A stretch of DNA of 48,737 bases from an archaeon (GTDB taxonomy: Archaea; Thermoplasmatota; Thermoplasmata; Methanomassiliicoccales; Methanomethylophilaceae). Positions within the stretch are counted from its first letter, which is position 1. Each line of letters starts with the position of its first letter. The notes under the pieces were generated by a model. The model saw only the letters and a list, made by a program, of their open reading frames with translations. It searched no databases and was not told the origin of the DNA. Shown one piece after another: positions 3,426 to 8,067 of the stretch. Both the position numbers and the translations under genes were made by a program. The stretch spans positions 1-48,737 of the forward strand of contig JAKSHS010000006.1 of NCBI GenBank assembly GCA_024399275.1, in the 5' to 3' direction.

Positions 3426-4040
3426 CTAAGTTAACGCACTTCCATTTTTTGTTAAGAATATACAGTAAAGTGTAATTTCTCCATCTCTAAATGTAAAGTC
3501 GCCACCTATATCCCTGATATACTCGGCCATGTCAATACCGTATCCGCTTATAGAAAATATTCTCATTTCCGGATACCTGCACTTTTTATCATCAAGAGCC
3601 GAACACCGTTCGCAATAATTGCATCCTCCAACTGATAGAGCAATAACGTCAAATCCGTTTCTTCTCATATCTGTCATTACACTTCTACAAGTGTCTTGAA
3701 ACCCACCTATGATTTTTTTGACGTAGCTCTTATTTCTAAAATCTACATCTTCAAAAGTTTGGGTAAGAACATCCGCAATATTGTAGCGACTAATCTCTGA
3801 AATACACACATCGGCATCTCCTAGAAATGGAGGACATGTTAAATTTCTCCCATAATTGCCGCAACGATTCGTCTTACAGATTTCTCTGTTTTTCCTAATG
3901 GAATTTAAGATTATATTTGGCTTAACAACATCAACAAAAAGATTCGAATTTGAAATGTCTTTACATAATTTTTTCAACAAACAAATTCTCCCATCCAACA
4001 TGTGATCGTCCATAACTTTGTCCTTAACAGTTATCCCCAT
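3426..4040 (-). CDS. DUF2284 predicted metal-binding protein
   Basis: A 204-residue cysteine-rich protein. It carries the DUF2284 signature CKTNRCGNYGRNLTCPPF (family form C-x-x-x-x-C-x-x-YG-x-x-x-x-CPP) near residues 55-75, a second cluster GGCNYCERC with a later Cys near residue 153, and a C-terminal GYGIDMAEYIRDIG block usual for the family. DUF2284 proteins occur widely in anaerobes. They probably bind iron-sulfur or another metal, and the function is not known. The start at 4040 gives the full frame; a second Met at codon 10 (4013) is possible. A gap of about 200 bases separates it from the divergent ABC importer genes. Confidence 0.8.
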   Translation of the reverse strand: MGITVKDKVMDDHMLDGRICLLKKLCKDISNSNLFVDVVKPNIILNSIRKNREICKTNRCGNYGRNLTCPPFLGDADVCISEISRYNIADVLTQTFEDVDFRNKSYVKKIIGGFQDTCRSVMTDMRRNGFDVIALSVGGCNYCERCSALDDKKCRYPEMRIFSISGYGIDMAEYIRDIGGDFTFRDGEITLYCIFLTKNGSALT

Positions 4041-4242: not shown

Positions 4243-5397
4243 ATGATCAAGTTATTCAATTGGAACCTCAAACTATGGGTAACCATTATCGTAATTATTG
4301 CAATCCTCGCAGGCGTAAGTGCACCTCTTTCCAAGTTGTCAGGAACAGATACAACTACAATCGTAATTTCAAGAGTAAATACAGAGGGCTCTGGAATATT
4401 TGGCGACGATTCTTCCATGGTCAATAATACGAAACCTTTAAGCATAAATGCAGAAAAATGGAAGGGGAAGGTCGTTGGAACGCCAGGCTTCGCATCTATT
4501 CAAGATGTAATAATCAAAGAACAGATCAAAAATGCTGGTCTCAAGTGGGAACAATATCAGGAAGGACGTCCTGTCGATCCAGAAAAGGTTTCGATTTGGC
4601 CATGTGGTTTTACAACCATGAAAGATAATTTCGTCAGCGGAAAAATACAAGCGGGTATTGTCTGGGAACCATTCTACAGTGAATTTACCAAGTTACAAGG
4701 GTGCTATGGTCTTTGTACCACTGGTGAGCTTCAGGGATACGAAAATCATGCTTGTTGTGTAATTTCGGTGAACAGCAACTATCTAAACGATCATCGATGG
4801 GAAGTTATTAACTTCCTTGCAGGTTATGTTAAAGCAGTGGACTGGATGAATAATTCTATGAATTCTCCTGAAGCCCACGCCGAAATCGTCAAAATAGCTA
4901 TGAAGAATTGTTCTAACTCTGTTAGTGAAGACACAATCAGCGACGCTTTAAAAAATGTCAGGTATGTGTACAATCTTGACAATTTCGTAGATGAGTATGC
5001 CTCTCTAATTAACAACATGATGAATGCTGGTCAGATTAAATCGTCTATTCTAAACCCAGAATCCATAAACCAATTTGCTAAGAACCACGTAGATTCTAGA
5101 CCTCTAGATGCAGCAGTAAAACTCTTAAAAGAAGGCCAAAACAAGAATCAGAGTGATACACTAACAGAAGTGAAGGTAGCATGCTTACCGGCGGACATTC
5201 ACCAGCTTGCGCTTCATGTAGCAATAGAAAAGGGATTTTTCAAGGAGAGAGGCATTAGCATTTCACTAAACATATGTCCCCTGGGCCCCAATGTTCTTAC
5301 CGCTATTATAGGCGGTGAGTCCGATATAGGGTTCGCGGGAGCCCCTCCAACAGTTGTCAACACCGTTAACATGACTGGAGGTACGCGGTGTGGTTAA
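4243..5397 (+). CDS. ABC importer substrate-binding protein, apparently circularly permuted
   Basis: A 384-residue extracytoplasmic protein of the NMT1/SsuA type with an N-terminal hydrophobic signal or anchor (residues 11-29). The family's segments are in the wrong order. Residues 35-290 correspond to the middle and C-terminal parts: TTIVISRVNTEGSG, then KGKVVGTPGFASIQDV near 74-89 and AGIVWEPF near 137-144. Residues 309-380 are what normally forms the N-terminus: VKVACLPADIHQLALHVAIE, GFFKERGI, then GGESDIGFAGAPPTVV. The C-terminal end, NTVNMTGG, would run straight into the N-terminal TDTTTIVISRVN in an ordinary protein. Together the parts make one complete two-lobe protein. The final codons double as the ribosome site (GGAGGT) of the permease, whose GTG lies 8 bases inside this gene. 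The substrate is unknown: sulfonate, nitrate, thiamine-precursor and metal-chelate transporters all share this family. Confidence 0.85.
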   Translation: MIKLFNWNLKLWVTIIVIIAILAGVSAPLSKLSGTDTTTIVISRVNTEGSGIFGDDSSMVNNTKPLSINAEKWKGKVVGTPGFASIQDVIIKEQIKNAGLKWEQYQEGRPVDPEKVSIWPCGFTTMKDNFVSGKIQAGIVWEPFYSEFTKLQGCYGLCTTGELQGYENHACCVISVNSNYLNDHRWEVINFLAGYVKAVDWMNNSMNSPEAHAEIVKIAMKNCSNSVSEDTISDALKNVRYVYNLDNFVDEYASLINNMMNAGQIKSSILNPESINQFAKNHVDSRPLDAAVKLLKEGQNKNQSDTLTEVKVACLPADIHQLALHVAIEKGFFKERGISISLNICPLGPNVLTAIIGGESDIGFAGAPPTVVNTVNMTGGTRCG

Positions 5398-6202
5398 TAT
5401 TGATCTCAACTACGACGAATACAACAAGGTACACCGTATAATTAGAGGCACACTTGTCACAGTGTCATCACTTGTCATTTTTGTCTTGGCATGGAACGAT
5501 ATATCTCTCCTCATAGGTAAATCTGCAATTCCGTCTCCGATGAAGACATTTGATGCTCTTAAATACCTACTTTTTAATGAAGACGGCGTAACACAATCAA
5601 CCATATGGCATCATATGTTAGTTAGTCTTGAGAGATTTCTTTCAGGGTTATCCATTGCATTTGTCATCTCTGTAATGCTTGGACTGATTATTGGGTCATT
5701 TAAGACATTGGATGATTTTACAAAACCTATCATAGAAATTCTTCGGCCCATAGCACCAATGGCATGGGCACCAATACTTATCTTCGCAATCGGTTATAAA
5801 TGGGGCCCTATCGCGGTTGTCTTTGTAGGAGTCTTTTTCCCTCTACTAACAAACACGATTTTTGGCGTCAAATCTATTGATTCAAAACTTATTGATGCCG
5901 CAAGGACACTCGGAGCGTCAAAGATACAAATTTTTACAAAAGTTATGCTTCCCTGTACCGTTCCATACATAATGAATGGTCTTCGCATAGGATCTGGTAT
6001 CGGATGGATGTGCATTGTTGCCTCTGAATTATATGCAGCAGCATGCGGGGGCATAGGGTACTTTGTAGGAATTCATGCATCAATCGGTCTATGGTCAAAT
6101 GTATATGTAGGCATTGTAGTCATTGCGGCACTAGGAACTATGACCACAGGTCTATTCGATCTAATTTATAAGTTCGTATCAGAAGGAATGGGAATGAAAT
6201 GA
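5390..6202 (+). CDS. ABC importer permease (SsuC/TauC-like)
   Basis: A 270-residue membrane protein with about six hydrophobic segments, the first at residues 20-38. It carries the EAA loop that docks on the ATPase, DAARTLGASKIQIFTKVMLP, near residues 164-183. It belongs to the binding-protein-dependent permease family (BPD_transp_1). The GTG start at 5390 is supported by GGAGGT at 5377-5382 and overlaps the end of the binding-protein gene, implying coupled translation. The stop overlaps the next ATG (ATGA), so the three importer genes form one tight operon. Confidence 0.9.
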   Translation: MVNIDLNYDEYNKVHRIIRGTLVTVSSLVIFVLAWNDISLLIGKSAIPSPMKTFDALKYLLFNEDGVTQSTIWHHMLVSLERFLSGLSIAFVISVMLGLIIGSFKTLDDFTKPIIEILRPIAPMAWAPILIFAIGYKWGPIAVVFVGVFFPLLTNTIFGVKSIDSKLIDAARTLGASKIQIFTKVMLPCTVPYIMNGLRIGSGIGWMCIVASELYAAACGGIGYFVGIHASIGLWSNVYVGIVVIAALGTMTTGLFDLIYKFVSEGMGMK

Positions 6203-6999
6203 AAGGTGATATGTCCAACAATAAACAGACAGAGAACGTTGGAGATATTCAAATCACGAACTTGTCCAAAATATTCAAAACAGACGAGAGAGAAGTAGTT
6301 GCTATCAAAAATTTTAACCTTGATATCAAGAAAGGAGAACTTGTAAGTATAGTGGGCCCATCAGGCTGTGGCAAGACAACGCTTCTCAGATGCATTGCTG
6401 GTTTAGAAACACCTACAAGCGGGGTGATCTCGTCGCACGGTAAGCAGTTCACAAAACCAGGAGCGGACAGAGGCATGGTTTTTCAGGACTTCATGCTCTT
6501 TCCTTGGAGATCTGTGAGAAAGAATGTTGAATTTGGGCTTGAAGTTATGGGGTTAGCAAAAACTGAGCGAAGAATAAAAGCAGAAACATATCTCAAACTA
6601 GTCGGTCTCGAAAAATTTATGGATGCAAAAATCCACGAACTTTCTGGAGGTATGAAACAGCGTATTGGGATTGCGAGAGCACTTGTCACAAAACCTAGCA
6701 TAATCCTTATGGATGAACCATTCGGCGCGTTAGACGCACAAACAAGGAACATTATGCAAAGTGAATTGGTCAAAATTTTAGATAAAACAGACCAAACAAT
6801 TATTTTTGTTACTCATTCTGTCGAAGAGGCGATATTTCTTTCTGACAGAATTATTGTTTTAACAAAACGACCCGCCACTATTAAAGAGATTATCAATGTC
6901 CCGTGGTCAAGACCAAGAGATCGTACCAATTCTGAGTTTATCGCACTTAGAAGAAAAATTCTAAAAAATCTTGAAGAAGAGAATGTTATGTCTGATTAG
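6199..6999 (+). CDS. ABC importer ATPase (SsuB/TauB-like)
   Basis: The ATP-hydrolysing subunit of the importer, 266 residues. It shows Walker A GPSGCGKTT (near 54-62), a Q-loop VFQDFMLFPW typical of the nitrate/sulfonate/taurine group, the signature LSGGMKQRIGIARAL, Walker B IILMDEPFGALD and the switch His in VTHSVEEA. ATG 6199 overlaps the permease stop. A second ATG at 6211, preceded by AAAGGTGAT, is an equally good or better start. The gene ends in TAG at 6997-6999, and a true stop soon follows in the same frame, so read-through would add little. Confidence 0.92.
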   Translation: MKGDMSNNKQTENVGDIQITNLSKIFKTDEREVVAIKNFNLDIKKGELVSIVGPSGCGKTTLLRCIAGLETPTSGVISSHGKQFTKPGADRGMVFQDFMLFPWRSVRKNVEFGLEVMGLAKTERRIKAETYLKLVGLEKFMDAKIHELSGGMKQRIGIARALVTKPSIILMDEPFGALDAQTRNIMQSELVKILDKTDQTIIFVTHSVEEAIFLSDRIIVLTKRPATIKEIINVPWSRPRDRTNSEFIALRRKILKNLEEENVMSD

Positions 7000-7069: not shown

Positions 7070-7657
7070 ATGCATGTTTACATATTAGGAGGGTTCCTTG
7101 GAGCAGGAAAAACCACACTCCTGATGAAAATTGCCAATGAACTTATAAACAAAGGTAAAAAAGTTGTAGCATTAGTCAACGAAGTTGGAAAGGTCGGTGT
7201 CGATGGAATCACTATTAAATCAGGTGGATACACCACAGTAGAACTTCCATCAGGATGCATATGCTGCACATTAGCTGGTTCTCTTCAAGAAAATTTTGTT
7301 CAAATTAAGCAACAATACTGCCCGGATGTTGTATTAATTGAGCCTACAGGTATCGCGCTTCCACATAGAGTTATGGAAATTGTCAAACTAATCGAGAATC
7401 CAGAGATTATAAAAATATTCGGAGTTGCAGACGTTCCGAGGTTTGATTTGTTTGTTTCAAAGAAGAAAGATTTTTACCTTAGACAACTGGCACATTCAAA
7501 TCTTCTTATTCTTACTAAAATTGATCTTGCTAAAGAAGGAGATATCGAAAAAATTCAAAAATGGTTTGCTAAAGAAGTTCCAGGGGTAGACCTTGTACCA
7601 GTGTGCTCAAACTCAGACAATAACATGTGTACAATTTTTAAGGAGATGAAACAATGA
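7070..7657 (+). CDS. CobW/HypB/UreG-type (G3E) GTPase, short form
   Basis: A 195-residue P-loop GTPase of the COG0523/CobW group, which loads metals (Zn, Co, Ni) or helps cobalamin enzymes. It shows Walker A GGFLGAGKTTLL (residues 7-18), the metal-binding CxCC motif at 63-66 (GCICC), the IEPTG segment, and TKIDL as the base-recognition motif. It ends after the G domain and lacks the C-terminal CobW_C domain found in full CobW proteins. The next gene overlaps it by four bases (ATGA) and may supply the missing partner function. It lies 70 bases after the ABC ATPase on the same strand, so metal or cofactor uptake is a reasonable inference for the whole locus. Confidence 0.85.
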   Translation: MHVYILGGFLGAGKTTLLMKIANELINKGKKVVALVNEVGKVGVDGITIKSGGYTTVELPSGCICCTLAGSLQENFVQIKQQYCPDVVLIEPTGIALPHRVMEIVKLIENPEIIKIFGVADVPRFDLFVSKKKDFYLRQLAHSNLLILTKIDLAKEGDIEKIQKWFAKEVPGVDLVPVCSNSDNNMCTIFKEMKQ

Positions 7658-8067
7658 GCGAAGAGACGTCAATTGAATTATCAAACGGTGCTGCTGTCGG
7701 TTTTACAGGACATATACACGATTTCGACGCTAATGTTGAAACAGAATTAGATCATGTTATGATGGAAATTGGAAAATGGGTCGAATCTGAAGCCGAAATA
7801 TTTCTTGGGCATATTAAAATGGCTATCACTTCTAACGACAAAAGTATCACACTTAATCTGACCGACCTCGAAGAAGGTGTAAAACATCACAACATTTTAG
7901 GTCGCGTGGGAAACGTCCATTTTAACTTTATGGTAGCAGTTACTGATGTCGACGAACATAAACTAAAAGACCAGATATTGCACATAATGAAAAATTCCAA
8001 AATAAATTTCTGTTTGGAAGAACACGAGTGTTCGTGTGAGCATGACGAACATCATGATAAACACTAA
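7654..8067 (+). CDS. Unknown protein with His/Cys-rich C-terminal tail
   Basis: A 137-residue protein that I cannot assign to a named family. It is mostly acidic with a predicted alpha/beta body. Its last 15 residues hold HECSCEHDEHHDKH, a dense cluster of His, Cys and acidic side chains that looks made for metal binding. It starts inside the end of the CobW-like GTPase gene (ATGA overlap), so the two are almost certainly co-translated. Tails like this occur on metal chaperones such as HypB and some CobW proteins. I infer that this protein works with the short GTPase as a metal carrier or acceptor, but the metal and the target are unknown. Confidence 0.75.
   Translation: MSEETSIELSNGAAVGFTGHIHDFDANVETELDHVMMEIGKWVESEAEIFLGHIKMAITSNDKSITLNLTDLEEGVKHHNILGRVGNVHFNFMVAVTDVDEHKLKDQILHIMKNSKINFCLEEHECSCEHDEHHDKH

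Follow-up and report, generated by a model that had tools for sequence, protein, structure and literature searches.

How could a substrate-binding protein (SBP) of an ATP-binding cassette (ABC) transporter come to carry the opening segment of its fold at the end of its chain, and is such a protein used? The question is raised by a gene at positions 4243-5397 of a 48,737-nt stretch of DNA, referred to here as the window, from an archaeon of the family Methanomethylophilaceae, order Methanomassiliicoccales (assembly GCA_024399275.1, contig JAKSHS010000006.1); mcrA is present in the source genome. The original prediction for this DNA had read the gene as a naturally circularly permuted SsuA/NMT1-type SBP, and its open reading frame (ORF) is indeed intact as quoted there, with 384 amino acids, the right coordinates and the plus strand. 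Our analysis indicates that the gene very probably encodes a working, membrane-anchored SBP of an SsuA/TauA/NMT1-like ABC importer that is permuted, recurrently so in this operon and likely by duplication. The gene and its parts are listed below.

4243..5397, + strand: SBP gene, SsuA/NMT1-type, read as circularly permuted, 384 aa, order anchor-B1-B2-A (P1); from ORF reading, profile matches, rotation and segment hidden Markov models (HMMs)
4243..4353, + strand: N-terminal hydrophobic signal or anchor helix plus linker, residues 1-37; from structure prediction and relatives
4354..4572, + strand: segment B1, residues 38-110, the canonical second part of the fold and here the new N-terminus (P1 cut); motifs NTEGSG and TPGFASIQ
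4573..5142, + strand: segment B2, residues 111-300, the canonical C-terminal part; motifs WEP (141-143) and H-A-C-C (169-172)
5143..5382, + strand: segment A, residues 301-380, the canonical N-terminal part of lobe I, here C-terminal; motifs D-I-H-Q (318-321) and GAPP (366-369)

Circular permutation of the substrate-binding protein

As encoded, the SBP matched the Pfam NMT1_2 profile (58.1 bits) and the NCBIfam SsuA_fam profile (63.4 bits), each in two out-of-order stretches, with residues ~25-290 corresponding to the central and final parts of the NMT1/SsuA profiles and residues ~308-377 to their beginning. After rotation of the sequence (301-380 followed by 36-300), each profile gave one full-length stretch with a higher score (67.4 bits for NMT1_2 and 74.5 bits for SsuA_fam). 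The A piece alone covered NMT1_2 positions 7-66 and the B piece positions 82-250; therefore, nothing is absent and nothing is doubled. The segment HMMs matched the protein in the order B1 (1e-25), B2 (7e-56) and A (6e-28), far beyond chance. These results bear out both that the normal opening segment (A, ~308-379) stands behind the anchor helix and the remainder (B1 and B2, ~38-300), and that nothing is missing when the protein is put end to start. As in natural permutants, both pieces are homologous to one parent and occur once each, in rotated order, and the arrangement is seen in independent genomes and is under selection. The rotation test, the conserved permuted orthologs, the purifying selection and the predicted strand-helix pattern of A support circular permutation, with a chain order of B1-B2-A instead of the canonical A-B1-B2.

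Conservation and selection in independent genomes

The source genome of the window is a draft of 750 kb in 16 contigs (79% complete, 5% contamination), in which mis-joined contigs could make neighboring or overlapping genes look permuted. However, a metagenome-assembled genome (MAG) from horse feces (locus L002) encodes an SBP that is 91% identical to that of the window, with the same order and the same flanking genes. Relatives were found in 91 of the 102 genomes of the family and in 133 of the 147 genomes of the order, and most of the 91 matching family genomes, some of them single-contig, have the order of the window. The search for the same order that the original prediction had proposed thus returned L002 and scores of relatives, and the rearranged or chimeric assembly that it had named as evidence against permutation did not appear. 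The ratio of nonsynonymous to synonymous substitution rates (dN/dS) between the window and L002 was 0.061 for the SBP, 0.034 for the permease and 0.044 for the ATPase, and only 0.010 for the displaced segment A of the SBP. The SBP gene is under strong purifying selection, with a value close to those of the two other transporter genes. Since independent and single-contig genomes agree and the ORFs are intact and selected, an assembly or binning artefact was rejected for the window arrangement and has a negligible probability.

Predicted structure

The AlphaFold2 model of the window protein had a mean predicted local distance difference test score (pLDDT) of 76.7 and a predicted template modeling score (pTM) of 0.73, and was built from a shallow alignment with few rows in segment A; alignments from fragments of canonical homologs mis-placed this segment and were not used. 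For segment A the model shows the pattern strand-helix-strand-helix-strand-helix, with pLDDT values that are mostly 82-92, and a hydrophobic N-terminal helix was predicted at residues 3-33. The P1 cut corresponds to a predicted loop between the lobe-I helix at 368-379 and the strand toward the hinge at 38-45, where the original prediction had placed it. As a canonical control we used the protein at L003:3881-4852 from a deltaproteobacterial MAG, which has the canonical order. Because it also has the NDLHQ and HPCC motifs, this protein seems to be the nearest relative beyond the archaeal clade that is not permuted. Its AlphaFold2 model (pLDDT 90.7) contains the same elements in canonical order, one-for-one with those of the window protein after rotation. 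In sequential Foldseek alignment to SsuA (2x26), the control gave 295 columns with an E-value of 9e-21 and a target TM-score of 0.79. The models suggest that the folded core of the window protein is probably an ordinary two-lobed trap.

Chain orders among related proteins

HMMs for A (the canonical N-terminal ~72 residues), B1 and B2 were scanned over all loci, and duplicates were removed before counting. The arrangements were labeled P1 (B1-B2-A), P2 (B2-A-B1), P3 (cut inside B2) and canonical (A-B1-B2); handles beginning with G and L denote genomes and loci, respectively.

P1, B1-B2-A: ~80 proteins; family f1, that of the window
P2, B2-A-B1: 46 proteins; families f2-f6, f8, f20, f24, f35, f40, f49 and f66
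P3, cut inside B2: 7 proteins in two separate groups
Canonical, A-B1-B2: 7 proteins; G070, G114, G135, G136, G221, G417 and bacterial L003
In-frame doubles: 4+1 proteins; (B1-B2-A)x2 in G054, G057, G059 and G064, and (B2-A-B1)x2 in G144

In window numbering, the P1 cut lies between ~379 and ~38, the P2 cut at 106/110 (median), at the start of B2, and the cuts of the two P3 groups at 153/154 and 149/150, respectively, nearly the same loop; the canonical chain ends at ~273-302. The predicted structure has loops at the P1, P2 and P3 cuts and at most canonical ends. The halves of the tandem doubles are 51-85% identical to each other. Nearly all loci of every class have the permease and the ATPase after the SBP (73 and 77 of 78 loci, respectively, for P1; 26 and 25 of 26 for P2), and no permuted relatives were found on viral contigs. 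Single-contig genomes carry P3 (G010), a double (G054), the canonical order (G135) and, in several cases each, P1 and P2; therefore, an assembly explanation is ruled out for the main states. The states of G070, G114 and G144, each carried by a single MAG, may still be artefacts.

Several proteins differ from these classes in detail. In the B2-A-B1 double of G144 (L163:3031-5223), the first half is without several otherwise invariant motif residues that the second half keeps, which is what one would expect of a spare copy. A permuted SBP of G093 (L159:3348-4898) has ~88 extra C-terminal residues that resemble a small beta-sandwich repeat (SGTVTDADGAPVADKEVTFLDSDG...). Genome G148 (L237:3300-4319, with L220) has an apparently canonical-order paralog separate from its B2-A-B1 protein. 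Candidate decayed doubles in the long ORFs of L076, L125, L137 and L169 were rejected; the extra stretches showed no similarity, and their length reflects upstream read-through.

Conserved motifs and the N-terminal anchor

Twelve positions (D318, H320, Q321, G49, S50, P81, G82, Q87, W141, H169, C171 and C172) are near-invariant in the P1, P2, P3 and canonical proteins and in the P1-doubles, the first half of the G144 double being the sole exception. Segments A and B1 would supply the cleft loops DxHQ, GxPP and GSG/TPG, and B2 would supply WEP and HxCC; the trap may close on its substrate and pass it on to the neighboring permease and ATPase.

A hydrophobic N-terminal helix, ~12 residues away, precedes the core in 81 of 81 P1 proteins, 47 of the 48 proteins read as B2-A-B1, 5 of 5 P3 proteins and 7 of 7 canonical ones. 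In the window SBP it is a putative export signal or membrane anchor. What differs between the arrangements is which surface loop is tied to the fixed anchor; permutation would shift the start and end of the chain and hence the loop that hangs from the N-terminal anchor. For Tp0684, a permuted SBP of Treponema pallidum, the authors of the structure suggested that permutation might have served as an adaptation for tethering to the membrane (PMC4990184). With a constant anchor and a variable attachment point, this idea is testable in the present family.

Phylogeny of the changes of order

In a tree of the SBPs, with sequences rotated to canonical order, 10 changes of arrangement were needed; the tree of permease and ATPase, which is unaffected by permutation, needed 12, or 8 in a reduced set. 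In the latter tree P1 has a single origin, from a P2 background at the base of f1, and P3 and the doubles have two each. Canonical L107 lies within P3, itself within P1 (98-99 support), and canonical L171/L178 and L165 lie inside P2. Approximately unbiased (AU) tests on the reduced set rejected a single origin for P3 (p=0.007), for the canonical order within the archaeal order (p=4e-6) and for the doubles (p=2e-4), p-values that are somewhat optimistic since the groups were named after the trees had been seen. Paralogs and between-genus transfer are evident among the loci.

The scattered canonical forms (G070, G114, G135/G136, G221 and G417) raise the alternative that the canonical order was never lost, so that canonical members of permuted clades are retained ancestors and the permuted orders arose many times independently; parsimony without a firm root cannot fix the direction. 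Yet the positions of L107 inside P3 inside P1 (98-99 support) and of L171/L178 inside P2 would then require many more parallel permutations, and we regard retention as unlikely. Permutation is recurrent whether canonical forms are retained or regained. We infer the direction of some of the order changes, and on balance lean slightly toward viewing the operon as a permutation hot spot, with at least four chain orders, at least eight changes, independent cuts at almost the same point of a hinge-side loop (149/150 and 153/154) and reversion to the canonical order via surviving doubles, and in which re-siting of the tether may be selected.

Origin of the new orders

In the duplication model of circular permutation, a gene is doubled in frame and trimmed at both ends, and the doubled forms expected on the way are known from DNA methyltransferases (PMC3320104). 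In this operon, the core would first have been duplicated in tandem and in frame, downstream of the anchor; the first copy would then have lost its front and the second its back, giving the new order. Repetition of these steps could account for B2-A-B1, which is widespread in the class, for B1-B2-A in the family of the window, for the cut inside B2 twice and for the canonical order nested inside permuted clades. In-frame doubles were found in two lineages, as this model predicts, and are preceded by an anchor of the same type. Permutation by duplication is the most likely origin of the new orders.

Alternatively, segment A could have been recruited from a different SBP gene by fusion, with loss of the original N-terminal part, in which case the order would reflect convergence and not the rotation of a single protein; such a chimera was raised by the Tp0684 authors for their permuted protein, and fusion-fission is a recognized route. 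The pairwise identities of A and B, however, correlate with r=0.83 over 11,175 pairs, A and B of the P3 and canonical cases share their nearest relatives, and the alignment of canonical L107 with L103, a relative of the P3 class, falls into two blocks with identities of 65% and 60%. The correlated distances and shared neighbors indicate that A was not taken from another gene; with the divergence of A and B matching, chimeric recruitment was rejected and is highly improbable.

Fission-fusion, by which pieces of the core were once separate genes that fused in different orders, would need no doubled intermediate to produce any of the cyclic orders and would suit the failure to find half-trimmed forms. 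In contrast to what it would entail, we found no genome with the pieces as separate genes, and the in-frame doubles occur in two lineages and are anchored alike; moreover, each of the several cut points would require a fission of its own. As no split genes were seen, we consider fission-fusion less likely than duplication, and quite improbable overall.

Several observations weigh against the reading of a recurrently permuted SBP that arose by duplication. No half-trimmed (one-end) duplication intermediate was found in the extra N- or C-terminal stretches of relatives. The SBP tree nests P2 in P1, whereas the permease and ATPase tree nests P1 in P2, such that the direction hangs on the rooting. 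Some rare states (canonical in G070 and G114, double in G144) rest on single draft MAGs. The structural model of the window protein is moderate in quality, with its shallow alignment and thinly covered segment A, and Foldseek aligned it over only ~240 columns (TM-score 0.49-0.51 by target length). In the alignment set beside that of the control, the values were ~243 columns, an E-value of 3e-5 and a TM-score of 0.49, as expected for a permuted chain in a sequential aligner, although the poorer model could contribute.

Comparison with known permuted proteins

Once rotated, the window protein matches the full-length profile of the SsuA_fam/NMT1 group (TIGR01728, PF13379 and PF09084; Escherichia coli SsuA 2x26, NrtA 2g29 and Thi5 4h67), with which it also shares the common operon partners, the secondary-structure elements and the best PDB fold matches. 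It differs from this group in its B1-B2-A order, in its DxHQ and HxCC signature and in its SsuA_fam score, which even after rotation stays well under the curated cut-off of 163.5 bits.

The original prediction had known of no described natural permutation in this family. This holds for SsuA/NMT1 in the literature searched, whereas other families of binding proteins do have natural permutants, namely Tp0684 and the glycine-betaine binders. Tp0684 (TpMglB-2, a 'Type Ic' glucose-binding protein) is likewise a natural permutant of a tethered ABC binding protein in which N-terminal lobe-I strands moved to the C-terminus. Unlike the window protein, it is an MglB of the Type I class, one cut point has been described, and its permuted part is poorly similar to the canonical N-terminus (PMC4990184); among the Pfam and PDB matches listed for the window protein none is of the MglB type, and those listed are NMT1/SsuA-type. 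Glycine-betaine binders such as OpuAC (PDB 2b4l/2b4m) also represent natural permutation in two-lobed ABC binding proteins, although no series of orders in one orthologous operon has been described for OpuAC (PMC2395249). The window protein had no Pfam match to the OpuAC family at E<=0.1 and aligned only weakly in structure (TMq 0.33). Permuted DNA methyltransferases and saposin/swaposin resemble the present case in permutation by duplication, with multiple orders and intermediates in one family (PMC3320104), but their folds are unrelated, and here the changes take place within a single transporter operon with the N-terminal anchor fixed. In the full-text literature searched, with most subscription journals outside the coverage, no permutation was reported for SsuA/NMT1 or Methanomassiliicoccales, or as recurrent in transporters. 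Natural binding-protein permutants as such were therefore already known, and what is unusual here is the repetition of permutation and its intermediates.

Natural circular permutations are usually viewed as single ancient events that leave little trace of the route. The many orders, doubles and apparent reversals among close relatives in one operon provide a natural record of circular rearrangement that allows direct tests of the duplication model, of how well loops withstand cutting and of the tethering idea raised for Tp0684. Homology and structure searches that work sequentially break up or overlook permuted proteins, which affects the annotation of archaeal binding proteins.

Operon context and possible function

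The genes downstream of the SBP gene are as follows.

5390..6202, + strand: permease, BPD_transp_1, TauC/NtrB/SsuC-like; its start overlaps the end of the SBP gene
6199..6999, + strand: ABC ATPase, NtrCD/TauB/SaoA-like; its start overlaps the end of the permease gene
7070..7657, + strand: CobW/G3E-type GTPase, a recurrent neighbor of the transporter in related genomes
7654..8067, + strand: small protein with a Cys/His-rich tail, which recurs beside the transporter together with the G3E GTPase

The end of the SBP gene overlaps the GTG start codon of the permease at 5390 by 8 nt, in line with the proposed coupling of the two genes, and the ATPase ORF at 6199-6999 that follows is intact. Our best guess is that the system is an SsuA/TauA/NMT1-like importer. 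Given a score far below the curated cut-off for sulfonate binders, the protein was not called an aliphatic-sulfonate binder and no substrate was assigned. A search for a riboswitch or other RNA clue to the substrate found only a tRNA, and the neighboring genes gave nothing decisive on the substrate, their clustering being cluttered by shadow ORFs.

The CobW/G3E GTPase and the Cys/His-rich protein occur near the transporter in ~18 related loci, up- or downstream and on either strand. As speculation, the HxCC and DxHQ signature and the G3E GTPase with its Cys/His-rich partner might hint at a metal- or thiol-related role. An AdoMet decarboxylase (PF02675) is encoded just upstream of the transporter in ~30 loci of the family of the window (for example, L127:1357-1998), and thioredoxin/oxidoreductase and ELP3 genes lie near P2 loci. 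In the window, a DUF2284 Cys-rich predicted metal-binding protein is encoded at 3426-4040 on the minus strand, divergent from the transporter, and this gene is kept in L002.
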